A stretch of DNA of 30,955 bases from a virus, in IMG/VR virus record IMGVR_UViG_3300021961_000393, positions 1 to 30,955 of that record; one strand, 5' to 3'. A program made the position numbers and the translations under genes. Each line of letters starts with the position of its first letter. Position 1 is the stretch's first letter. The notes beneath the pieces are model-generated. The model worked only from the letters and a program-made list of their open reading frames with translations. It was not told where the DNA came from and ran no database searches. This document shows, in pieces, positions 2,041 to 11,229 of the stretch.

Positions 2041-2241
2041 TCACCCGCGATCAAGCATGACGGCGGATGGCAACTCGCCCTCCACTATCATCCGGCGCAC
2101 CAGCCGATGGGTATTGGATTTCCCGCCGCCAATCTCGGCAACCAGTTCGCGGTAGGATGGATTGCGCTTCAGCTTGTGGCGCAGTGACGCAATGCCGATG
2201 AGAATGGCATCGCGCCGTGCGCGGTTTACCCGGCCCCTCAT
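2041..2241 (-). CDS. Small winged-helix regulator (LexA-type DNA-binding fold)
   Basis: Encodes 66 residues starting from an ATG that overlaps the exonuclease stop (ATGA). After a basic N-terminus (RGRVNRARRDA) it has a helix-turn-helix pattern, NPSYRELVAEIGGGKSNTHR, then LVRRMIVEGEL. This resembles the winged helix at the N-terminus of LexA and of small phage regulators. No protease or dimerisation domain follows, so it would be a minimal DNA-binding protein. It may regulate its own operon or the opposing lysis genes. Its target cannot be read from the sequence. Confidence 0.6.
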   Translation of the reverse strand: MRGRVNRARRDAILIGIASLRHKLKRNPSYRELVAEIGGGKSNTHRLVRRMIVEGELPSAVMLDRG

Positions 2242-3200
2242 TTATCGAGTTCCTTCACCGAAAGCGTCTGCTGGCGCACGACCGATGGCGGCTTGGCGGG
2301 CACAACCCTTTCGGGCGATCCCTTCAGATGGCGCATCGGCCACTTGATAACGAACCGGCGATTGCCCACCGGGGCATAGGCGCATTCATGACAGCCCATT
2401 ATATCCTTTAGCCCGGCTTCCGCCTCGTCGATGATCGCCTCCGCTAAACGCTTCTGCTGTCTGGCATGAACCAGTTTCTCCGCCAGTTCCAGCGCGGGTT
2501 CCATCCCGGTAAGGTCGATCTCCGGTGCGCCCTGATCGACGCGGGCATAGGCCACGTTCGCGTCCATGCTGCTGATGGATGGATACCAGTCTATGTTGCG
2601 GGCGCGTTCCTCGAACTCCGCGACGGCATCAGCAATGCGGCGCTGCACATTGGGGTCGGCGCGGTACACGAACACGCGCAGATCGGAGCCGCGATACAGC
2701 ACACAGACCGCGCCCCATTGGTGGCCGGTGCACATCATCTGCGCTTGAAGCTGTAGGGGTCCGCGATACGGCGGCGGTACATCCTCCGGCGCGGCTTGCG
2801 TGGTTTTGGCCTCAAGGATGCCGATGCCGTCGATCTCGATCTCGTCGGCGTTGACGCAGTAAATCCCGCGCTCGGTATCCGTCCGAACGCTACCCCTGCC
2901 CACTCCCGTGCCGTCCAAACTGGCGGCGAGCGGCAGCACCTCATGCTGCGCGGCGGAGCGATAGTCCAGTTCCACGTTCCGCAATTCAAGGATGCGGGCG
3001 GCCTCGGTCAGCACGATAGGTTCAAGCAGATCGCCGAACCTCATCCGCATATTCTGCGGCCACGGCGTCGGTTCCTTACCGGCGCGGGCGTCGATGATTT
3101 TTGCCAGCATTTCGTTCTGCGAGGTATAGGGCGAAAGGCCCATGATCGCGGCGACGATTGACGCGGATGCTTGCGTCGAGGGTGTGACTTTTCCAACCAT
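2238..3200 (-). CDS. YqaJ-type phage recombination exonuclease
   Basis: Encodes 320 residues with the YqaJ PD-(D/E)XK core in the N-terminal half. GDLLEP is at about 56-61, the SLDGT aspartate at D96, LEAKT with E130 and K132, and the QLQAQMMCTG block at about 150-159. These match the metal-binding and catalytic positions of lambda-exonuclease-like enzymes. Family members degrade one strand of duplex ends for single-strand annealing recombination. No RecT, Erf or Red-beta partner is recognisable nearby. The C-terminal half (VHARQQKRLAEAIIDEAEAGLKD onward) is a helical extension seen in phage members. It sits in the minus-strand early-type operon. ATG 3198-3200 is followed by MVGKVTPSTQ. Confidence 0.85.
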   Translation of the reverse strand: MVGKVTPSTQASASIVAAIMGLSPYTSQNEMLAKIIDARAGKEPTPWPQNMRMRFGDLLEPIVLTEAARILELRNVELDYRSAAQHEVLPLAASLDGTGVGRGSVRTDTERGIYCVNADEIEIDGIGILEAKTTQAAPEDVPPPYRGPLQLQAQMMCTGHQWGAVCVLYRGSDLRVFVYRADPNVQRRIADAVAEFEERARNIDWYPSISSMDANVAYARVDQGAPEIDLTGMEPALELAEKLVHARQQKRLAEAIIDEAEAGLKDIMGCHECAYAPVGNRRFVIKWPMRHLKGSPERVVPAKPPSVVRQQTLSVKELDK

Positions 3201-3203
3201 TTT

Positions 3204-3365
3204 CTAACCTTTCATTAGTTCGGAGATTATCGGGAGTAGGACGAACAGCACCCACCCAAGGGCGATGAGAATTGCCACGCCCAACAGGTCGCGGGCGACT
3301 TCCAGTATTTCACGCATTTGTTCTGTTTTCCCTTTTTGATCTCGGCTAAACGCTTGGCCCCTCAT
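3204..3365 (-). CDS. Small single-helix membrane protein
   Basis: Encodes 53 residues if it starts at the ATG overlapping the previous stop (ATGA, 3363-3365). An internal ATG at 3315-3317 would leave 37 residues and keeps the whole membrane part. The helix is GVAILIALGWVLFVLLPIISEL, followed by the short tail MKG. It sits three bases before the exonuclease start. No family is recognised. It may be an early inner-membrane peptide. The start is uncertain because neither site has a strong ribosome-binding sequence. Confidence 0.5.
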   Translation of the reverse strand: MRGQAFSRDQKGKTEQMREILEVARDLLGVAILIALGWVLFVLLPIISELMKG

Positions 3366-3613
3366 TGCTTGACGGATACCAGAAGTTTTCCGATCCAGCG
3401 CCATTCCTCGACGCAGGCGGCGAGGCGGTTGCGGCCCTTGGCAAAGGACGGCTGCCCGGTGGCGCGCTCGAGATAGGCGACCGCCTCCGCCGGGTCGTCG
3501 AATGTGCGCTTTCCCGTCCCGTTAAAGTTCGGCGCGCAATGGTATTCGCGCTTCATTTCGGGGCGGCTTTTGAGATTACGCTTTTGCACTGGCTGATCGT
3601 TTCGTTTAGCCAT
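3362..3613 (-). CDS. Hypothetical protein, basic, 83 residues
   Basis: Starts at ATG 3611-3613 behind a strong AGGAGG. The N-terminus is very basic (AKRNDQPVQKRNLKSRPEMKREY), followed by a central FDDPAEAVAYLERATGQPSF segment and a C-terminal CVEEWRWIGKLLVSVK. No domain is recognised, though basic composition would suit nucleic-acid binding. Its first 61 bases overlap the preceding minus-strand ORF in another frame, and the AGGAGG lies inside that ORF. Confidence 0.6.
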   Translation of the reverse strand: MAKRNDQPVQKRNLKSRPEMKREYHCAPNFNGTGKRTFDDPAEAVAYLERATGQPSFAKGRNRLAACVEEWRWIGKLLVSVKQ

Positions 3614-3729
3614 TTTCCGTCCTCCTGTCTGGCGATGAATTCAAGGGCGATCACGGCGCGTTCAAGCGCCGTGATCAATTCTCGCAGAACGCTACCCGTG
3701 CCCGCGTTCATGGCGTCTCGATCAGCCAT
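3553..3729 (-). CDS. Small helical hypothetical protein
   Basis: A 58-residue reading from ATG 3727-3729 to TGA 3553-3555. It begins MADRDAMNAGTG, continues with an amphipathic helix (LRELITALERAVIALEFIA) and ends in ISKAAPK. It overlaps the upstream 32-residue gene by 22 bases and the downstream gene by 61 bases. The long downstream overlap is unusual. An 11-bp perfect inverted repeat (3649-3659 / 3666-3676) lies inside it. It is probably real, since similar helical small proteins fill phage early operons, but the evidence is modest. Confidence 0.45.
   Translation of the reverse strand: MADRDAMNAGTGSVLRELITALERAVIALEFIARQEDGKWLNETISQCKSVISKAAPK
3649..3676 (-). repeat. Perfect 11-bp inverted repeat inside early operon
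   Basis: GATCACGGCGC at 3649-3659 is the exact reverse complement of 3666-3676, with a 6-base loop. It lies within the coding sequence of the 58-residue protein. No T-run follows on the minus strand. It could act as an mRNA hairpin or a protein-binding palindrome. Confidence 0.7.
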
Positions 3730-3806
3730 AGCAGGGTGAGGAATAGGCCGCCCGCTATGGCGGCAAGGGCAAGGGTGATTTCAAGGTAGGAATAGATGCG
3801 CTTCAT
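3708..3806 (-). CDS. 32-residue transmembrane peptide
   Basis: ATG at 3804-3806 follows AAAAAGGAGAC, a strong ribosome-binding site within the repeated leader element. The peptide is MKRIYSY, then one hydrophobic helix (LEITLALAAIAGGLFLTLLWL), then IETP. It ends at TGA 3708-3710, inside the next gene. The strong initiation region and clear membrane helix support translation. The role is unknown. Confidence 0.55.
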   Translation of the reverse strand: MKRIYSYLEITLALAAIAGGLFLTLLWLIETP

Positions 3807-3813
3807 GTTGTGT

Positions 3814-3848
3814 CGTCTCCTTTTTGTGGGCGGGGGCCGAAGCCCCCG
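3814..3848 (-). promoter_or_regulatory. Repeated hairpin-plus-SD leader, copy A
   Basis: On the minus strand a 7-bp GC stem with a four-base loop (3831-3848, CGGGGGC/GCCCCCG) is followed by CCCACAAAAAGGAGACG and then the start at 3806. Two other copies stand at 5291-5326 and 5547-5580. The segment 3814-3830 matches 5547-5563 at 15 of 17 bases. There is no T-run, so termination is unlikely. A stabilising or attenuating mRNA leader is inferred. Confidence 0.7.
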
Positions 3849-3858
3849 GCGGATTGGC

Positions 3859-4275
3859 TCATTCAACGAGATCAATGTGAAGCGCGGTTAAAAATGCGGA
3901 ACACTGGCTAGGCTCTAACATGACGCCGTAAAGTGAAGTTTCATTGAGGTTAGTGCCCTCAAGATTGGCGCCGCTAAGGTCGGCATTTTCAAGATCAGCG
4001 CACCAAAAGTTAGCGCCGCTAAGATCAGCGCCGCTGAGATCGGCGCCAAAAACTATTGCGTGCTGAAGGTTAGCACGATGGAGATTGGCGCCGCTAAGGT
4101 TGGCGCAACTAAGTTCCGCTTCAAAAAGCCAAGCGCCGCTGAGGTCAGCGCCGCTAAGGTCTTCTTCTGCAAGGTAGGCGCCGCGAAGGTTAGCGCCACT
4201 GAGGTTGGCGCCGCGAAGGCTGGTGCCTTCGCAAGAGTAGATGACTTCTTCGTCGTCATTTTTGATTTCGATCAT
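3859..4275 (-). CDS. Pentapeptide-repeat protein
   Basis: Encodes 138 residues with a short lead (MIEIKNDDEEVIYSCEG), then about 19 tandem five-residue repeats of A(N/D)LSG/RGANL type to about residue 115, and a non-repeat tail (MLEPSQCSAFLTALHIDLVE). Such repeats form a right-handed square beta-helix. Some members (Qnr, MfpA) are acidic DNA mimics that bind gyrase. The repeat here is rich in Asp, Glu and Asn with few basic residues, which would suit DNA mimicry. It lies directly after the ArdC antirestriction gene, so a shared anti-defence or topoisomerase-protecting role is plausible but unproven. The GGAAAGACACGAA before the start is a reasonable binding site. The repetitive DNA here is coding and is not a CRISPR. 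Confidence 0.85.
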   Translation of the reverse strand: MIEIKNDDEEVIYSCEGTSLRGANLSGANLRGAYLAEEDLSGADLSGAWLFEAELSCANLSGANLHRANLQHAIVFGADLSGADLSGANFWCADLENADLSGANLEGTNLNETSLYGVMLEPSQCSAFLTALHIDLVE

Positions 4276-4332
4276 TTCGTGTCTTTCCTTTGGCTTGCCA
4301 TCATCAGGCGGGAGGGTGCCATCCTGCCCGCG

Positions 4333-4359
4333 ACGGGGACGGCGCGAGGCCGCCCCCGT
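4333..4359 (-). repeat. GC-rich hairpin between ArdC and pentapeptide genes
   Basis: Bases 4333-4343 and 4349-4359 form an 11-bp stem with one G-U pair and a 5-base loop. It begins eight bases past the ArdC stop on the minus strand. No T-run follows. It is analogous in place to the other GC hairpins that separate genes of this operon. Confidence 0.6.
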
Positions 4360-4367
4360 TTCGGCGG

Positions 4368-5282
4368 TTAGGCGGCGACGGCGGCGGGTTCCTCCGCCTC
4401 CGCCTCCGGCTTGGGGTTAATGAACGCCGCCGCCTTGCGGGCGGCGCTAAAGGCGCGGAAAATTGCCCGCTTGTCTTCGCGGAGGCGAGCGATCCAACCG
4501 TTCAAATACTTGGCATGATCGGGCGCGGGCGCTGTCTCGATGCCGAGATCAGCCGCAAGAAACGCGGCGGCGCTTTCGGCGATCAATTCTTCGAAGGCGT
4601 ATTCTGGCGATCCGAACGGGGCCAGCTTGAGGCGATCAAGGCGCGAAGCGTGGCCCGTCCAATGGCCTAGTTCATGGAATGCGGTCCCATAGTACCCGGC
4701 GCGGCTGGTAAAAGCGCCAAACGGGGGGATGGTGATTTGATCGGTCGCGGAGGAATAAAAGGCGCGATCCCCCGCCGCGTGGATAATCTTTGCACCGGTT
4801 GCCGCGATTACCGCATCTGCGGCGGCAATGCGGGCGGCCTCAGTCATACCGTTGGCCGCCGGATCAGCTGGCACATTGTAGGTGTTGCCGCTCGCGTCCC
4901 GCACTTGATCGCCGTTGAAAACGGAAAAATGGCGGAGGGTAGGGATGCGATCCACAATCGCCTCGCCCTTGCCATTTACCTTGCCCGTGTCGCGCTCGAA
5001 CATTTTCCAGAAAGTAATCGGCGTTGCTTTCTCGCCCTTTTGCACCTGATAGCCGCGCTCGGCCCATTGCTTGTAGGTGCCCCACAAGGTGCTGGTGTAG
5101 CCCTTGCGGCTGGCGCTGGCGAAGGTAAGGGCGACGTTGACGCCGTTATAAGGCTTGCGGCTGGCGACGTTCTGGTGGGCCGTGGAGCGCCACGGCTTCG
5201 TCCAATTGGTGCCTTCGGTTTCCATAAGCCGGACAATTTCGGCGGAAACGTGTTCGTAAATGTCAAATTTTGCGGTGGTCAT
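4368..5282 (-). CDS. ardC: ArdC-type antirestriction protein
   Basis: Encodes 304 residues from ATG 5280-5282 (MTTAKFDIYEHVSAEIV), placed after CGGAGAC. An in-frame extension upstream to 5345 lacks support. Residues about 5-130 match the ArdC N-terminal ssDNA-binding domain: WTKPW, then NVASRKPYNGVNVALTF, then WGTYKQW and YQVQKGEKATPITFWK. The rest is a zinc-metallopeptidase-like domain with HELGH at 203-207 and a downstream EELIAES glutamate (about 231-236). ArdC proteins occur mostly on conjugative plasmids and in some phages. They protect incoming DNA from type I restriction and bind ssDNA. The C-terminus is an Ala/Glu-rich tail. Expression as the second gene from the divergent promoter fits early protection of injected DNA. 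The gene looks plasmid-derived. Confidence 0.9.
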   Translation of the reverse strand: MTTAKFDIYEHVSAEIVRLMETEGTNWTKPWRSTAHQNVASRKPYNGVNVALTFASASRKGYTSTLWGTYKQWAERGYQVQKGEKATPITFWKMFERDTGKVNGKGEAIVDRIPTLRHFSVFNGDQVRDASGNTYNVPADPAANGMTEAARIAAADAVIAATGAKIIHAAGDRAFYSSATDQITIPPFGAFTSRAGYYGTAFHELGHWTGHASRLDRLKLAPFGSPEYAFEELIAESAAAFLAADLGIETAPAPDHAKYLNGWIARLREDKRAIFRAFSAARKAAAFINPKPEAEAEEPAAVAA

Positions 5283-5290
5283 TTTGCGTT

Positions 5291-5326
5291 GTCTCCGTTT
5301 TGTGCCGGGGGCGGGATCGCCCCCGG
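5291..5326 (-). promoter_or_regulatory. Repeated hairpin-plus-SD leader, copy B (before ArdC)
   Basis: A perfect 9-bp stem (5305-5313 / 5318-5326, CCGGGGGCG) with a 4-base loop is followed on the minus strand by CACAAAACGGAGAC and the ArdC start. It lies between the stop at 5342 and the start at 5282. It matches copies A and C in order and spacing. Confidence 0.7.
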
Positions 5327-5341
5327 CGGGTTGATTAACGA

Positions 5342-5530
5342 TCAAGCGAGATCGGCGCGTTCGGCGACCTCCGCAGGGGCGTCATAGAGGCGGACCTGCC
5401 ATCCCCCGTCGTAGTCCGGGGCGATCCTGATTTCACGGCCCGGATATTCAGCGCGGGAGCCTTCAAGGCGGCGCTGGCAGGATGAGTGGCGACCCGCGAA
5501 GAGAACGGTGTATTCGTCGTTATAAGCCAT
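5342..5530 (-). CDS. Hypothetical protein, first gene of minus-strand operon
   Basis: Encodes 62 residues from ATG 5528-5530 (MAYNDEYTVLFAGRHS). A longer in-frame reading would cover the promoter region and is rejected. The sequence has a beta-rich look (YTVLFAG, then EIRIAPDYDGGWQVRLYDAP) and an acidic end (AEVAERADLA). No known domain is identified. As the first gene downstream of the divergent control region it should be among the earliest expressed. Small size and context would suit another anti-defence or takeover protein, but nothing in the sequence proves this. Confidence 0.65.
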   Translation of the reverse strand: MAYNDEYTVLFAGRHSSCQRRLEGSRAEYPGREIRIAPDYDGGWQVRLYDAPAEVAERADLA

Positions 5531-5546
5531 GATGCGATATCCCTTG

Positions 5547-5580
5547 CGTCTCTGTTTTGTGGGCGGGGGCTTGTCCCCCG
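5547..5580 (-). promoter_or_regulatory. Repeated hairpin-plus-SD leader, copy C (operon 5' end)
   Basis: The stem CGGGGG/CCCCCG (5564-5569 / 5575-5580) with a 5-base loop is followed on the minus strand by CCCACAAAACAGAGACG, 17 bases upstream of the start at 5530. Being the first copy, it would be in the 5' leader of the whole minus-strand transcript. Confidence 0.65.
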
Positions 5581-5591
5581 TCGATGTCCCC

Positions 5592-5620
5592 CTTTTAGAT
5601 CGGTTGCGCGGAGCCGTCAA
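5592..5620 (-). promoter_or_regulatory. Candidate promoter for minus-strand early operon
   Basis: On the minus strand TTGACG (5615-5620) is a good -35 box. At 17 bases it is followed by TAAAAG (5592-5597), and at 15 bases by TCTAAA. The -10 is weak. It lies 62 bases upstream of the first minus-strand start and overlaps the plus-strand candidate, so the two would compete. Confidence 0.4.
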
Positions 5621-5631
5621 GCTGATATTAT
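5604..5631 (+). promoter_or_regulatory. Candidate promoter for plus-strand RHH/resolvase genes
   Basis: TTGCGC (5604-5609), a 16-base spacer and TATTAT (5626-5631) lie 38 bases before the ATG at 5669. The 5' leader is AT-rich with GAGG before the start. The RHH protein encoded just downstream is a candidate autoregulator of this divergent region. Confidence 0.45.
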
Positions 5632-5668
5632 CGCGGTTGCAAAATAATTTTTTCGAGGCCAGAAAATC

Positions 5669-5866
5669 ATGAAATATCAAGCGATTACATTGCGGCTGAG
5701 GCCGGAAACAGTTGCGGCGCTGCGGATGGCGGCTCAAAAATCGGCGCACCGAACGATGGCGGCGCTGGCCGATGAAATCCTCGCGGCGGGGCTTGCGGCG
5801 CGCCTACAGGCGGCGGAAAGCGATCTAGAGCGCCTTCTGGCGGCGGCCCGTAGGGTGAGCGCGTGA
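5669..5866 (+). CDS. Arc-like ribbon-helix-helix DNA-binding protein
   Basis: Encodes 65 residues. The N-terminal KYQAITLRLRPETVAALRMAA is a beta strand followed by the first helix, and TMAALADEILAAGLAARL is the second helix, matching the Arc/MetJ ribbon-helix-helix fold. A short helical tail follows (ESDLERLLAAARRV). Such dimers bind short operator repeats and often repress their own promoter. Its place just right of the divergent control region makes it the likely repressor of one or both operons. The stop overlaps the next start (GTGA). Confidence 0.75.
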   Translation: MKYQAITLRLRPETVAALRMAAQKSAHRTMAALADEILAAGLAARLQAAESDLERLLAAARRVSA

Positions 5867-6315
5867 GGCCGGGCGGCGGGCGGCAAAAGGGCGCGGCCTT
5901 CGAGCGCGAGATGGCGGCGGCGCTTGAGCAGGGGTTAAACGTCCACTTCCGGCGGAACCTCGAACAGTACCGCGAGGCCGAGGGGGCGGATTTGATTACG
6001 CCCAATATGCCGAATTTCCCATTCTCCATAGAGTGCAAGCGGTACGCCGAGGGCGAGGTGCGCCCGGAGTGGTGGGCACAAGCGAGCGTGGCGGCGGCAA
6101 AGGCGGGGAAGTATCCGGCGCTGGTGTACCGGTTCGACAGGCGGGACACATATGTGATAGTGCCTATGTCGTCTATTGCTTTTGGCGTAGGAAATGGGGC
6201 GGGAACGGGGGACAACGGTTGCATTTCGGGTTGCAACCGTCCTGCCCGGATCGCGTTCGAGGACTTCCTTTTTCTATGCCGCGAGGTAATGGCGGCGCAA
6301 AAAGGTTTCAATTAA
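5863..6315 (+). CDS. Resolvase-like PD-(D/E)XK nuclease
   Basis: Starts at GTG 5863, overlapping the RHH stop, and encodes 150 residues. Motifs in order are KGAAFEREMAAAL (E14), EGADLITP (D43) and FSIECKRY (E57, K59). These are the spacing and residues of Holliday-junction-resolvase-like and related PD-(D/E)XK enzymes found in phages and plasmids. A later VYRFDRRDTYVIVP segment continues the core sheet. It may resolve recombination intermediates or branched replicating DNA. The end of the gene contains two copies of the ACGGTTGC motif found in the repeat block downstream (6215, 6232), so the control or origin region may begin inside it. Confidence 0.7.
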   Translation: MRPGGGRQKGAAFEREMAAALEQGLNVHFRRNLEQYREAEGADLITPNMPNFPFSIECKRYAEGEVRPEWWAQASVAAAKAGKYPALVYRFDRRDTYVIVPMSSIAFGVGNGAGTGDNGCISGCNRPARIAFEDFLFLCREVMAAQKGFN

Positions 6316-6422
6316 ATCAACGGGTACGGTGGTTCGGTTACGGTTGCATCGAGGTTTCCGTAACCCCGGTTACAGGTTCGGTTACAATCCCCCCCCCTTA
6401 GGGGGATGTAACCCGCAACCGT
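6215..6422 (+). repeat. Iteron-like repeat block, candidate origin or operator
   Basis: Five GGTTAC/GTAACC sites lie at 6336, 6360, 6368, 6380 and 6408 (first base of each hexamer), all within 78 bases. GGTTCGGTTAC is exactly repeated at 6331-6341 and 6375-6385. ACGGTTGC or its reverse complement occurs at 6215, 6233, 6340 and 6415. GTTACAATCCCCC (6381-6393) can pair with 6401-6412 as a hairpin with one bulged A, and the run of nine C (6389-6397) reaches into its loop. The block between 6316 and 6435 is non-coding and precedes a winged-helix replication-type gene. Origin function is inference. Confidence 0.6.
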
Positions 6423-6444
6423 ACCAGTAAAGGAGATGCATTTT

Positions 6445-7023
6445 ATGGGTCTTAAAAAGAAAACTTCACTTCGTGCGGCTCCATCTGCGGAGCGGCTTTT
6501 CGTGGGTGGGTCGGATCGCGTCTATCGCGCCATCCAGTCCGCGCTGATCGAACTGGACAAGGTGGCGAAGGATTGCGAGGCCCAATGGGGCATTGATCGC
6601 CTGCCGGAACTGGTGGGGCCGGAATTGCGCGAGCGGTTCGAGGCGCAGGGCGATAGGTTGGACGAGGCGATAGCGCGACAGGATGTAGACGCCGTGCGGC
6701 ACGAGGCGGAGGTAATGGCCCGCGCTTGGCAGGCCCTAGAAAGGGCAGCGAAGGGGGCAGGCGCGCGGGAGTTAACCGGCGAGGGGTTCGAGGGCCGGAC
6801 AAGTGACGGGCGCGTTGTGCGCGTTTGCCGCGACATTCACGAGGCTAGCAAAGCGATGCGTGACCAGCCGGGCCTTGTCGCGGTAGGGGCGGATGAAGTG
6901 GCCGCGCTTTGGGGGCTTTGGGAAGGGGCGCGGCTCGTGGAAAGGGCGAAGGCGACATTTCCGGGCGCGAAGGTAGTTGCGACGAATTACAGGGAGAGCC
7001 TCGACGATGAAATCCCATTCTAA
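6445..7023 (+). CDS. Helical protein with SSB-like C-terminal tip
   Basis: Encodes 192 residues from ATG 6445, which has AAAGGAG at proper spacing. An ATG at 6436 is in frame but abuts the binding site. The protein begins MGLKKKTSLRAAPSAERLF and is mostly helical, with no OB-fold pattern that I can see. It ends in LDDEIPF, which closely resembles the DDDIPF tip of bacterial SSB. That tip recruits host primase, RecQ, exonuclease I and other replication proteins. The gene overlaps the following winged-helix gene by 17 bases and follows the iteron-like block, so a role in replication is likely. I do not recognise a named family. Base use (many GCG, CGG, GGG) is like the ArdC region. Confidence 0.7.
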   Translation: MGLKKKTSLRAAPSAERLFVGGSDRVYRAIQSALIELDKVAKDCEAQWGIDRLPELVGPELRERFEAQGDRLDEAIARQDVDAVRHEAEVMARAWQALERAAKGAGARELTGEGFEGRTSDGRVVRVCRDIHEASKAMRDQPGLVAVGADEVAALWGLWEGARLVERAKATFPGAKVVATNYRESLDDEIPF

Positions 7024-7687
7024 CGCTGGCCCGGTAGCCGTACCGGGGGAAAAGTGGAAGTGGTCAATTGTGCCCACGCGGGCGTTTGGCGATCCGGCGT
7101 TGAAGCTGCCGGACCTTCGCGTTCTTGGCGCGTTGTGCGCCTTCGTTAACCGGGCGGGCGTGTGCTGGCCCGCTCTCGAAACCATCGGCGGAATTAGCGG
7201 TCATGCGACGATCAAAAGCGTTTTCGATGCTATCGCCCGCTTGAAAAAGGCGGGTTACGTGCGCCAGTTGAAAGCGAAGGATTATCAACTGACAAAAAGC
7301 GGTTGGAAAACAAACCGTTATCAGGTCCTTTGGGAAGGCAACGATCCGCTGCCCGGCCTCGAAGATATAAACGCCGCGACGAAACTACGGGCCGCCCTCG
7401 ATCCGCCGGAGGAAAGCAAAGAAACAGGGGGTACGGGGGAAGACGCGGCGCTGATCTCGCTCTCGCACACTCTCGCGCGCGCCTACGCCGCCACCCTCGA
7501 GCGCCGCACCGGGCAGGCCCGAAATATCACCAATGAGATCAACACGGCCCGGCGCTTGGCCGAAAAAGGCGTTACTGTTCAACAGGTTACTGAGGCAACC
7601 GAGGCGCTATGCCGCGCCGCGATAGAGCGCCGGGGCGGACTTCCCTTCCTCGCCGACGTAGCGCGGCACCTCAACGCCGCGCCATGA
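7007..7687 (+). CDS. Winged-helix replication-initiator-like protein
   Basis: Encodes 226 residues from ATG 7007, which lies inside the end of the preceding gene. Residues about 27-90 form a winged helix-turn-helix: LKLPDLRVLGALCAFVNRAG, CWPALETIGGISGHATIKSV, FDAIARLKKAGYVRQL. A linker is followed by a helical C-terminal region (LARAYAATLERRTGQARN, then VQQVTEATEALCRAA). The two-part layout resembles replication organisers of phages (O/DnaD-like) and winged-helix Rep proteins of plasmids. Lying next to the iteron-like block, it is the best candidate for an origin-binding initiator. A transcription factor is the alternative. Confidence 0.6.
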   Translation: MKSHSNAGPVAVPGEKWKWSIVPTRAFGDPALKLPDLRVLGALCAFVNRAGVCWPALETIGGISGHATIKSVFDAIARLKKAGYVRQLKAKDYQLTKSGWKTNRYQVLWEGNDPLPGLEDINAATKLRAALDPPEESKETGGTGEDAALISLSHTLARAYAATLERRTGQARNITNEINTARRLAEKGVTVQQVTEATEALCRAAIERRGGLPFLADVARHLNAAP

Positions 7688-8014
7688 TCCCGGCGCATGG
7701 CTGGCGGGGCGGATCGACCATATAAGGGCATGGCGAAATGCGACCGTCCCCCCACGAAAGCGCATAGCGCAATACTATCATAGGCTTATCGTTTTCCATA
7801 ATATACGTTATGCGCGAATGGCCTGCATAAATGGCAGGGCTGGCCGGGATGTCGTCGCCTACCGCCCGGCGCGAAGGGCACCCTTTGCCCCCCGCCCAGC
7901 CGCGTGTACGGAGGGGGGTGTCGCAAAAAATTTTCCCCACTTTCCGCATTTTCTTCTTGCGCCGCGCAAAATTCCCTGCCCATTATCGCCCAACAACCAA
8001 ATCGGAGACACAAC
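7688..8014 (+). other. Non-coding stretch between the two replication blocks
   Basis: No convincing gene is seen in these 327 bases. It holds an AT-rich island (about 7770-7812) flanked by the inverted pair GCGCATA (7760-7766) and TATGCGC (7809-7815). There is also a GC-rich pair with CCCCCC and GGGGGG arms (about 7890-7916), followed by AAAAAATTTT. A 42-codon minus-strand reading (7671-7799) is possible but lacks a ribosome-binding site. The next start is preceded by ATCGGAGACACAAC, similar to the SD part of the early-operon leaders. Base composition changes here, so this may be a module boundary. Confidence 0.5.
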
Positions 8015-8299
8015 GTGAACCGCGATACGGTGCTTTCCGCCGTCACCAATATTCTCACCGCCCGTGGCGCGAACTACGGCGATGCGTACATTAACCACAA
8101 GCGCATTGGCGACCTGTGGTCCGTCATCCTCGGCAAGCCCGTTGCGCCGCATGAGGTCGCCCTTTGCATGGCCGCTCTGAAGATCGCTCGCCTTGTTGAG
8201 TCGAAGCATCACGCGGACAGTTGGATCGACCTTGCGGGCTATGCCGCCATCGGCGCTGAGTGCGTCGAGCCGAACAGCCGACCGACCGAAGGACGCTAA
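8015..8299 (+). CDS. DUF6378-type phage protein
   Basis: Starts at GTG 8015 behind GGAGACACAAC and encodes 94 residues. The sequence RDTVLSAVTNILTARGANYGDAYINHKRIGDLW, then LCMAALKIARL and DSWIDLAGYAAIGAE, is the pattern I associate with the DUF6378 phage family. It is all-helical with conserved Arg/Tyr/Asp residues somewhat like MazG-type nucleotide-binding helices. The function is unproven, and a nucleotide-related role is a weak inference. It opens the second plus-strand gene block. Confidence 0.75.
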   Translation: MNRDTVLSAVTNILTARGANYGDAYINHKRIGDLWSVILGKPVAPHEVALCMAALKIARLVESKHHADSWIDLAGYAAIGAECVEPNSRPTEGR

Positions 8300-8304
8300 T
8301 CGCC

Positions 8305-8718
8305 ATGCGCCCGCGCTATGAGTCAGCCCGTGATCTGGCCAACGAGCGCCGCGTTGCGGAGCGCCTGAAGGCGCAGCGCAACCTCGATGTTCAGAAGATG
8401 CCGATCAGCTATCGCCTCGACTACGCTCTTATGCGCGACGACAAGATCGTCGGTTTCGCCGAGATTAAGTCGCGCCGCAATGAGATGGCGCGTTATCCGA
8501 CGCTTATGATTTCCCTCGGCAAGGTCATTGCCGCTCGCCAGCTTACCGCTGCGACGAAGCTGCCGTGCTACCTGATTGCCGAATTTACAGATTGCATCGC
8601 GGTGGTGAACTTCCGCGAGCAGCACGAATTGGGTATAGGCGGGCGCATCGACCGCAATGACGCGGCTGATGTAGAGCCGTGCGCCTATTACCCAATAGCC
8701 CGGTTCGCAATCCTGTGA
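8305..8718 (+). CDS. Putative PD-(D/E)XK nuclease
   Basis: Encodes 137 residues from ATG 8305, six bases after the previous stop. The N-terminal helix (ARDLANERRVAERL) carries a possible conserved Glu. YRLDYALMRDDKIVGFAEIKSRR contains the D39 and E53-x-K55 pattern of the PD-(D/E)XK core. A strand with CYLIAEFTDCIAVVNF follows. Phage proteins of this shape are often annotated as VRR-NUC-like or hypothetical nucleases. It probably acts on replicating or recombining DNA. The exact reaction is unknown. Confidence 0.55.
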   Translation: MRPRYESARDLANERRVAERLKAQRNLDVQKMPISYRLDYALMRDDKIVGFAEIKSRRNEMARYPTLMISLGKVIAARQLTAATKLPCYLIAEFTDCIAVVNFREQHELGIGGRIDRNDAADVEPCAYYPIARFAIL

Positions 8719-8752
8719 ACCAAAATCTCTGACGTTGAGAAGGAAAAGTAAA

Positions 8753-9346
8753 ATGGCACTTGGATTTAATACTGAAAGCAAGCCCGTCACCAACATCCTC
8801 CCGATCATCAAGTTCGACGCGAAGGCCGGTGACTTCATCCGGCAGGACCGTCAGCAGGATGCCGGTGGTCAGTGGAATCGTACGGAAAGCGAACTCAGCT
8901 TTCCGCTTCGTATGATGGTTGACTTCGAGAACCTCGAAGTGGGCTGGCTCTCGTTCTCGACCGGCGCACCTGATTTCCACATGGTGCGCGTCGGCGAACG
9001 CATGCCGGAGAAGCCGTCCGATGAACACAAGCACGCTTTCCGCCTGCGCCTGTTCAGCGACGATCTTGGCACTCGTGAGTTCTCCGGGTCGTCCAAGACG
9101 CTGCTTCGTGCGGTCGATCTGCTGCACAATGAATATGAGGCGGCGAAGGGCAAGAACGCTGGCAAGGTGCCGGTGGTGGAAGTGACCGGCACTTCGACGG
9201 TCACGGTCAACACGCCGAAGGGTGAGTTGCGGTTTAAGTCGCCGAAGTGGGCGATCGTGGATTGGGTCGAGCGCCCGTCCGGTTTGGGGGAAGCGCCCGT
9301 CGCGGCGCAGGGTAAGTCGTCGGCCAAGGACGAAGACTTGTTCTAA
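8753..9346 (+). CDS. Putative phage single-stranded DNA-binding protein
   Basis: Encodes 197 residues from ATG 8753, with AAGGA upstream. It begins MALGFNTESKPVTNILPIIKFDAKAG. The body looks beta-rich (LRMMVDFENLEVGWLSFST, then FRLRLFS), and the C-terminus is a Ser/Ala linker ending in the acidic tip KDEDLF. A beta core with an acidic tail ending in Phe is the plan of T7 gp2.5 and SSB. The gene directly precedes the primase/helicase. No direct sequence match to a named SSB family is claimed. The hairpin at 9355-9384 follows its stop. Confidence 0.55.
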   Translation: MALGFNTESKPVTNILPIIKFDAKAGDFIRQDRQQDAGGQWNRTESELSFPLRMMVDFENLEVGWLSFSTGAPDFHMVRVGERMPEKPSDEHKHAFRLRLFSDDLGTREFSGSSKTLLRAVDLLHNEYEAAKGKNAGKVPVVEVTGTSTVTVNTPKGELRFKSPKWAIVDWVERPSGLGEAPVAAQGKSSAKDEDLF

Positions 9347-9354
9347 AACGCGAT

Positions 9355-9384
9355 GCGGCGGGTGTTCTTGGGGGCACCCGCCGC
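9355..9384 (+). terminator. Hairpin after the ssDNA-binding gene, possible attenuator
   Basis: GCGGCGGGTG (9355-9364) pairs perfectly with CACCCGCCGC (9375-9384) across a 10-base loop. Only a mixed GCCTTCTTTG follows, so termination is likely weak. It lies between the abundant-type ssDNA-binding gene and the primase/helicase, and could lower readthrough to the latter. Confidence 0.55.
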
Positions 9385-9402
9385 GCCTTCTTTGGGAATT
9401 CG

Positions 9403-11229
9403 ATGATGAATAATATTGGGGCATACATGGAGGCCGTGGCCCGCCACTATTGGGGCGAGCCAACGAAAGTTCGCGGCCACGAAATTCGGTGGGGCACCTA
9501 TGGATCAAAGTCTGTCGACAAGAGGAAGGGTACGTTCTACGATCACGAGCATTCTGTTGGCGGTGGTGTTGTTGACCTCGTGCGGCTGATGGAAGGCGCG
9601 ACACTTTCGTCGCTGCCCGATGTTCTTGAACGTAAATTTGGTATTCCGAAGCGGGTGCAGGAAGGTTTGCGCCCTGCCGAGTTTCTCTCGCGGATTTATG
9701 ATTACTTCGACGAAGATGGCGTTCTGCGCTATCAGGTGATGCGCTATGAGCCGAAACGATTTGTCCAGCGGCATCCTATTGCGGACGACCAGTGGTCTTA
9801 CAAAATGGATGGTATCGAACCGCTGCCTTTCAATTTGCCCTCTATTCTTGCGAACGCCCATCGTCCTGTCTTTGTGGCGGAAGGGGAGAAGTGCGCGGAA
9901 GCACTGATCCGCGCTGGCTTCGTTGCGACGACAAATCACGGCGGCGCGAATAATTGGAACCCGTCGCTCAATCGCTGGTTCGCTGGCCGCAAGGTCGTCG
10001 TGCTGCCCGATAACGACGTTACCGGCAAGGCTCACGCCCAGCGCGTCGTAAACAATCTTTTGCCGGTCGCTTCGGAAATAAAGTTGTGCGAGTTGCCGGG
10101 GTTGTTGCCGAAGGGAGACATATCGGATTGGTTTAACGCTGGCGGAACTTCGGAGGCGCTAACGGACTTGGTGAAGTCTGCGCCCGTTGTGCAAGCGGCG
10201 CAGGAGCCGGTAGAGGAACCAGCGCAACCGACTGGCGATGTATTTCCGATTTATAGCGTAAATCATCTTACGATGATGCCGCCGGTTGAATTTCTTGTCG
10301 AGGGGCTGTTGCCGCGCAATGCCTTCGTGGTTGCGTATGGATTGCCCGGCGCGGGCAAGAGTTTCTTTGCCCTTGACGTTGCCATGTCGGTTGCGGCCAG
10401 CCGTTCGTGGCAGGGCTTGGCGACTGGTTCTGGCGCAGTGCTTTACATCGCTGGTGAAGGCGTCGGCGGTATCGGCAAGCGCATCAAGGCGTGGCGCGAT
10501 CACAATAAGTTTGACGGCGAGGAGCCGGATTTCTTTTTGCTGCCGACCGCCGTGCGCTTCCGCGAGCCTGAGGATGTCGAGAAGCTGTTTCGCACCATCG
10601 ACGGATTGGGCAAGCAATTTTCTTGCGTCGTCGTCGATACGGTCGCCCGTGCCTTGTTGGGTGGCGACGAGAACAGCGCCTCAGACATGGGTCTGTTCGT
10701 TGATGCCTGCGACACGCTGCGTAAGCGGCTGGGCTGCACATTGCTGGCTATCCATCATGCGGGCAAGGATGTTGCGCGTGGTATGCGCGGATCGTCTGCG
10801 TTGCTCGGTGCCTGCGATACGTCGATCTGCATCAAGAGCGACGGCGACATTCTGTCGCTGCTGGTCGAGAAGCAGAAGGACGCCGACGCAGCGCCGGAGA
10901 TGTTCTTCGACATGGTTAAGGTTGCCATCCTTGAGGGCAGTTCGATTGTATTGCAGCGCCGCGATGTATCTGGTGGGGGCAGCTTCCAGCCGAAGCTGAC
11001 TGAGGCCGACCGCATCGCGCTACAGGCGCTGCGTAATCTTGAGGCCGAACTTGGCTGGCGCAGGGTTTCTGTCGAACAATGGCAGCAGCGCCATCTCGCC
11101 AATGCACCGGATGAAAAGAAGGAACGACGCAATCGTGCCCGTGCTAAACTTCAGACCAGCAAGGTCGTGTTCATCGAGAACGGTCAGGTTTGGACCGCGC
11201 CGGAGGTGAAGGAATGGGAAAAGATTTGA
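9403..11229 (+). CDS. Toprim primase/RepA-type helicase fusion
   Basis: Encodes 608 residues from ATG 9403 or 9406. The N-terminus (residues 1-150) resembles the non-catalytic start of DnaG/gp4-like primases. A Toprim domain follows, with VAEGEKCAEAL (E160, K163) and LPDND (D203, D205). From about residue 295 there is a RecA-like ATPase of the AAA_25/RepA class. Walker A is GLPGAGKS (313-320), Walker B is CVVVDTVAR (about 408-416), and AIHHAGKD is at about 449-456. A helical C-terminus may bind DNA. The protein would unwind and prime phage DNA for a host polymerase, since no polymerase gene is visible. Its 3' end overlaps the terminase small subunit start. Confidence 0.85.
   Translation: MMNNIGAYMEAVARHYWGEPTKVRGHEIRWGTYGSKSVDKRKGTFYDHEHSVGGGVVDLVRLMEGATLSSLPDVLERKFGIPKRVQEGLRPAEFLSRIYDYFDEDGVLRYQVMRYEPKRFVQRHPIADDQWSYKMDGIEPLPFNLPSILANAHRPVFVAEGEKCAEALIRAGFVATTNHGGANNWNPSLNRWFAGRKVVVLPDNDVTGKAHAQRVVNNLLPVASEIKLCELPGLLPKGDISDWFNAGGTSEALTDLVKSAPVVQAAQEPVEEPAQPTGDVFPIYSVNHLTMMPPVEFLVEGLLPRNAFVVAYGLPGAGKSFFALDVAMSVAASRSWQGLATGSGAVLYIAGEGVGGIGKRIKAWRDHNKFDGEEPDFFLLPTAVRFREPEDVEKLFRTIDGLGKQFSCVVVDTVARALLGGDENSASDMGLFVDACDTLRKRLGCTLLAIHHAGKDVARGMRGSSALLGACDTSICIKSDGDILSLLVEKQKDADAAPEMFFDMVKVAILEGSSIVLQRRDVSGGGSFQPKLTEADRIALQALRNLEAELGWRRVSVEQWQQRHLANAPDEKKERRNRARAKLQTSKVVFIENGQVWTAPEVKEWEKI

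Follow-up and report, generated by a model that had tools for sequence, protein, structure and literature searches.

The gene block at 3362-7990 of virus record IMGVR_UViG_3300021961_000393 raises the question of whether a podophage has taken up the replicon of a plasmid or carries a replication module of its own. The whole stretch that we analysed, 30,955 bases, is called the window here. An original prediction, made from the letters alone, listed an ArdC protein, a ribbon-helix-helix (RHH) regulator, a resolvase-like nuclease, iteron-like repeats and a winged-helix Rep-like protein as a block with distinct codon choice, and proposed that the phage had captured a plasmid replicon and could persist as a plasmid. 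We favour, with fair though not strong confidence, a different explanation: positions 5669-11229 are probably the native replication module of a MEP301-like podophage, in which the primase-helicase would read an origin made of iterons.

A replication module of MEP301-like podophages

The genes for the RHH-like protein, the nuclease, an unnamed protein (g6436) and the winged-helix protein, here called O-like, recur in dozens of contigs of MEP301-like podophages (Table 1). In relatives found via the portal protein, the O-like protein or the pattern of a conserved noncoding element (E2), the usual order is YqaJ (reversed) - RHH - PDDEXK_15 - PDDEXK_14 - SSB-like - primase-helicase - g6436 - O-like - DUF6378 - TerS - TerL. 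Only in the window does the group g6436 - O-like - DUF6378 stand between the two nucleases, and the repeats and E2 were carried along with it; repeats, g6436, O-like and E2 relocated together as one unit in this genome.

The predicted nuclease proved to be a PDDEXK_15 protein, RusA-like in PHROGs. The winged helix foreseen for the Rep-like protein is seen in the N-domain of its AlphaFold2 (AF2) model (predicted local distance difference test, pLDDT, 84.6), and there are weak matches to HTH_36 and to the O-like, primosomal and replication-initiation families of PHROGs (E 5e-7 to 6e-8). A tblastn search found no O-like match in 72,556 plasmids or in named phages; the distant copy of the cultured phage MEP301 (gp55) was picked up with a profile. 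The primase-helicase and g6436 were also sought in MEP301, and no match was found. The regulator is less clear: its RHH-like appearance comes from a conserved LRLRxET...SAHRSMAALADEIL pattern, whereas searches with hidden Markov models (HMMs) gave no Pfam or PHROG match, and only one of 11 family members reached RHH_5, at E 0.05. The g6436 protein of the window has no Pfam or PHROG match either, and its predicted fold gave no match in the PDB at E 0.001, an absence that proves nothing. P194 and F195 are invariant in its alignment, and DDEIPF is the consensus end in most relatives. The EIPF tip (7003-7020) resembles the C-terminal tip of E. coli SSB, though the protein has no recognised oligonucleotide-binding (OB) fold. 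The core of the primase-helicase matches the RSF1010 RepA structure 1g8y (E 1e-4).

The rest of the window is a podophage genome with T7-like connector, capsid and tail genes, terminase genes and an M15 endolysin; the portal, capsid, terminase and tail tubular protein genes are all present, so that the structural and packaging set is complete. Methylophilales phage MEP301 is the closest named phage (portal 65%, TerL 64%, major capsid protein 67%), and the structural and terminase genes common to the window and MEP301-like podophages are in identical order. A DNA search of the whole window against phages for near relatives gave no match. The MEP301 assembly is a circle of 34.8 kb without RNA or DNA polymerase (PMC8024684). 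Judged by relatives of 34-36 kb, about 4-5 kb around the tail fibre are probably missing from the window, both ends of which fall in or near the tail fibre, and statements of absence for the window cover its sequenced part. As had been predicted, neither an integrase nor a DNA polymerase was found there, and a resolvase, ParA and the serine recombinase PF00239 were likewise not found.

Table 1. Features of the window, with positions, strand and the evidence for each
Feature	Positions	Strand	Evidence or remark
YqaJ/RecE-like exonuclease	2238..3200	-	PF09588 E 3.9e-8, phrog_434 E 2e-32; left neighbour of variable cassette
Pentapeptide-repeat protein	3859..4275	-	PF00805 E 2.9e-33; accessory cassette
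ArdC-type anti-restriction protein (ArdcN + zincin domain)	4368..5282	-	PF08401 E 2.5e-30 and PF18818 E 6.8e-45; accessory cassette
Small RHH-like protein	5669..5866	+	Alignment of relatives; without confident HMM match
PDDEXK_15 nuclease (PHROGs: RusA-like Holliday junction resolvase)	5863..6315	+	PF24608 E 3.9e-18; phrog_244 E 5.6e-18
E1 iteron cluster	6216..6421	.	CGGTTAC + at 6335, 6367, 6379; CGGTTGC + at 6216, 6341; reverse at 6233, 6415
E1 palindrome GGTTACAATCCCC..GGGGGATGTAACC	6380..6413	.	13-nt arms, 85%
g6436, unnamed replication-module protein	6436..7023	+	Conserved in relatives; AF2 pLDDT 84.5
O-like winged-helix replication protein	7007..7687	+	HTH_36 E 8e-4 (below gathering cut-off)
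E3 conserved G-run element in O-like linker (ACAGGGGGTACGGGGGAA)	7424..7441	+	DNA-level codon conservation
E2 conserved noncoding element CACCCTTTGCCCCCCGCCC..GGGGGGTGTCGCAAAAAATTTT	7879..7934	.	Downstream of O-like
DUF6378 protein	8015..8299	+	PF19905 E 1.6e-27; synteny; moves with cassette
Putative SSB-like protein (name inferred)	8753..9346	+	Precedes helicase in relatives and in Caenibius p1; without Pfam match
Primase-helicase, RepA-type AAA_25 helicase core	9403..11229	+	PF13481 E 2.8e-38; phrog_239 DNA primase/helicase
Codons 553-597 of primase-helicase, putative iteron-reading segment	11059..11193	+	Best co-variation with iteron type

The iterons and the protein that may read them

The iteron-like repeats of the original prediction are more than chance, as CGGTTACA occurs seven times in 6200-6435 when one mismatch is allowed, whereas dinucleotide shuffles contain 3.6 copies on average (p 0.005). 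Repeat clusters were found at the homologous position, upstream of g6436, in 31 distinct phages, and nearly all of them exceed every shuffle. The iteron sequence itself varies from phage to phage (ATCACACA, ATCTCATA, CACCCCAC, ATCAATAG, CCCGACCG, TGTCCGAG and others). The repeats are grouped around a palindrome, the centre of which is often CCCC-TATA-GGGG, and palindromes beat all 20 shuffles in 22 of the 31 phages. We infer that the origin region of the window phage is formed by its iteron cluster with the palindrome, at 6216-6421.

For each pair of phages, iteron similarity was set against the similarity of their primase-helicase, g6436 and O-like proteins, taken in sliding windows. Co-variation peaked at primase-helicase residues 553-597, where raw r reached 0.56 and partial r 0.39. 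In a partial Mantel test on 38 phages that controlled for g6436, O-like and the remainder of the helicase, iteron type followed this segment with r 0.266 and p 0.0005, a p-value that is somewhat flattering because the segment was picked from a scan of the same data. No co-variation with iteron type was seen in the 38 phages for g6436 (p 0.61), for the g6436 N-terminus beside the repeats (p 0.98) or for O-like (p 0.73). The pairs L158/L137 and L132/L137 have common iterons, and their g6436 proteins are just 59-60% alike while their helicase C-termini are 99% alike. On the controlled test we rejected g6436 as the reader, an idea taken from a few pairs, and the wing of O-like as well. Because iteron type tracks residues 553-597 and not O-like or g6436, the C-terminus of the primase-helicase probably reads the origin, as P4 alpha does. 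An iteron-type origin region does lie in the block that was called plasmid-like, but its repeats co-vary with a protein encoded outside that block.

Some of our observations weigh against this assignment. The 3' end of the helicase gene adjoins the repeats in most relatives, and linked recombination could give part of the correlation; g6436, equally adjacent to the repeats, is without a co-variation signal, which bears on this objection. Residues below 500 of the primase-helicase retain a weaker signal (partial r 0.187, p 0.0025), a scan of its C-terminus with domain HMMs found no DNA-binding fold, and E2 and E3 may be further parts of the origin.

A phage without a DNA polymerase in its sequenced part presumably relies on the polymerase of the host. 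The primase-helicase would bind the iterons via its C-terminal segment and bring itself to the origin, where g6436 and O-like may assist; g6436 perhaps docks host replication proteins through its SSB-like tail.

Alternative explanations

Instead of an origin, the repeats could be operators at which the RHH protein, g6436 or O-like binds to an early promoter that is autoregulated. As operators might, they immediately precede the g6436-O operon and come with a palindrome and inverted copies. We nevertheless consider this unlikely: iteron type tracks neither g6436 nor O-like (the co-variation test covered these two and not the RHH protein), and the repeats are kept in plasmid p1 of Caenibius sp. 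WL, where there is no O-like gene and no RHH relative was found. Because p1 keeps the repeats without O-like, the iterons go with the helicase and g6436, not with O-like. This element (L176, NZ_CP081845.1) is a phage genome deposited as a complete circular plasmid of 38,127 bp, with terminase and packaging genes, a capsid that differs from that of the window, an Sf6-type TerS, repressor-like helix-turn-helix genes and a tyrosine integrase. It shares with the window module the SSB-like protein, the helicase and g6436, and has 13 iterons CTGCGGAA with a CTCCCCCTACGGGGGAG palindrome. The p1 locus in question lies at 31649-35207.

An origin of the lambda type, situated in the O-like gene at E3 with O-like as initiator and the upstream repeats as accessory, is also improbable. 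The iterons of lambda lie inside gene O, and O-like has weak matches among phage O and replication-initiation families. Conservation in its linker extends to the DNA level, such that identical residues in E3 use identical codons in 0.90-0.93 of pairs, compared to 0.495 gene-wide. However, E3 is a single G-run pair without a repeat array and is not phage-specific. An AGGGGG motif common to E1, E2 and E3 occurs elsewhere as well and was discarded as not specific. Of 25 loci selected by protein, 22 have E2 downstream of O-like, and its length is nearly fixed; its pattern was found in at least 55 viral contigs, several of which end near it. A comparison of E2 with Rfam gave no match. As an RNA hairpin it was rejected, since RNAalifold gave five pairs, none with changes on both sides; a role as cos or pac was unsupported, as E2 in the window travels with O-like and is 3 kb away from TerS.

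That the window phage is a phage-plasmid, with the prophage kept as a circular plasmid through its iteron origin, is in our view quite unlikely. This would agree with the presence of an iteron-type origin region, with a sequenced part devoid of recombinase and integrase, and with Caenibius p1, which has the common helicase, iterons and g6436 and was deposited as a circular plasmid; p1 as an extrachromosomal prophage is suggestive. However, p1, with its tyrosine integrase, may be a prophage that was excised, ParA was found in none of 33 records, 4-5 kb of the window genome are missing, and a closer relative lies integrated in a contig that looks chromosomal. This relative is among three loci that the O-like profile found in a single scan of bacterial genomes. 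According to our computed call in a metagenome-assembled genome (MAG), where an assembly error is possible, a MEP301-like phage of 35.3 kb occupies 63,502-98,844 (L162-L164) of a Hyphomicrobiales contig of 186,520 bases (G034:C36). It is flanked by 16-bp direct repeats, two copies of GTCGCATAAGACATAT, with hflX and mazG to the left and, further right, moeA and an ATP12 gene. The prophage is cut between YqaJ and a serine recombinase, so that YqaJ and a tyrosine recombinase are near one end and the serine recombinase is near the other. A further integrated element with this module lies in a Rhizobium MAG contig (L161, 101-4919), where a primase-helicase and an O-like relative adjoin chromosomal genes and a tyrosine integrase. 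PF00239, the small serine recombinase, occurred in 9 of the 33 virus records of our first search and in 10 of the 13 records of the second, and neither tyrosine integrase nor ParA (by PF13614) was found in the 33, the window included. The window phage may be a virulent derivative or a plasmid prophage, or may have a recombinase in the missing part.

The codon evidence for a plasmid replicon was borne out in part. In the block, GGG (25/98 compared to 81/591 in the rest), CGG (24/99 compared to 57/453) and GCG (88/197 compared to 265/795) are enriched, with Fisher p 0.004-0.006. The shift concerns the RHH, PDDEXK_15, g6436 and O-like genes (5669-7687) but not the ArdC and pentapeptide genes, so the block is not uniform, and orthologues in relatives show part of it, strongly in L086. 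Although ArdC homologues on 3020 plasmids and the codon shift in 5669-7687 speak for recent capture of the block from an alphaproteobacterial plasmid, this explanation is very improbable and for 5669-7687 close to refuted, because these genes belong to the module that the phage group regularly carries, O-like is unmatched in plasmids and distantly present in MEP301, the one plasmid match of g6436 is the phage genome Caenibius p1, part of the codon shift is found in relatives, and ArdC occurs in 53 phages too. No replication initiator shared with plasmids was thus found in O-like or g6436. A block common among phage relatives with no plasmid homologues is largely what the original prediction said would refute it; the exception is Caenibius p1, which g6436 and the helicase match.

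Accessory genes

The ArdC gene of the original prediction was confirmed, both its ArdcN and its zincin-like metallopeptidase domain exceeding the gathering cut-off. Its phage homologues include those of pelagiphages and Caulobacter phages, and when the block DNA was compared with plasmids, the best matches listed were ArdC in every case. The slot that the serine recombinase holds in relatives, between YqaJ and RHH where mapped, is occupied in the window by the pentapeptide and ArdC genes, which are accessory genes at this site. A 24-nt direct repeat (92%) lies at 3814-3837 and 5547-5570, upstream of the pentapeptide gene and of a small gene at 5342-5530, and is perhaps a shared early promoter or leader. 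A 31-nt inverted repeat (94%) lies at 573-603 and 692-722, with 88 bases between the copies.

Comparison with known systems and significance

The alpha protein of satellite phage P4 combines primase, helicase and a C-terminal origin-reading part and acts with ori/crr iterons. The window phage resembles P4 in having one protein with primase, helicase and a putative C-terminal reader, and short element-specific iterons. It differs in that the helicase is of the RSF1010 RepA type (AAA_25) rather than SF3, g6436 and O-like are additional, and the C-terminal fold is putative. RSF1010 also uses a RepA-type hexameric helicase with iterons, but with a separate iteron binder (RepC) and a separate primase, whereas in the window group the reading of iterons seems to fall to the helicase itself. 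With lambda O and its origin, the window shares a winged-helix protein with a DNA-conserved linker element; sequence similarity is weak, and the main repeats of the window lie upstream of the gene that precedes O-like. The archaeal plasmid pRN1 has primase and helicase families that differ from those of the window. Its ORF904 replicon is likewise small and minimal, with a single replication protein of the primase-helicase type (PMC4234260). Extrachromosomal mycobacterial prophages with RepA-type origins also have phage-borne origins able to keep a prophage as a plasmid; there the plasmid state was shown experimentally, whereas the window is known from sequence and no ParA was found in it (PMC7157519). 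MEP301 has similar head, tail and terminase genes, YqaJ and the distant O-like gp55, and differs by a gene with a serine recombinase domain (gp04) (PMC8024684).

A wider proposal, which we put forward tentatively and hold to be somewhat short of probable, is that the helicase is the origin-recognition protein throughout a large group of aquatic podophages. Its diversifying C-terminus, together with the iterons, would create many types of replication specificity resembling incompatibility, and the origin cassette would be mobile as a unit and shared with an element living as a plasmid.

Our analysis replaces the story of plasmid capture with a testable pairing between helicase C-terminus and iteron. 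If the pairing is true, about 40 natural pairs provide a ready code for how a self-recruiting RepA-type helicase recognises its origin; it would also account for the start of replication in podophages without a polymerase and offer small orthogonal replicons. The integrated relative suggests that temperate members exist in this group, of which the one cultured phage has no recognised integrase.

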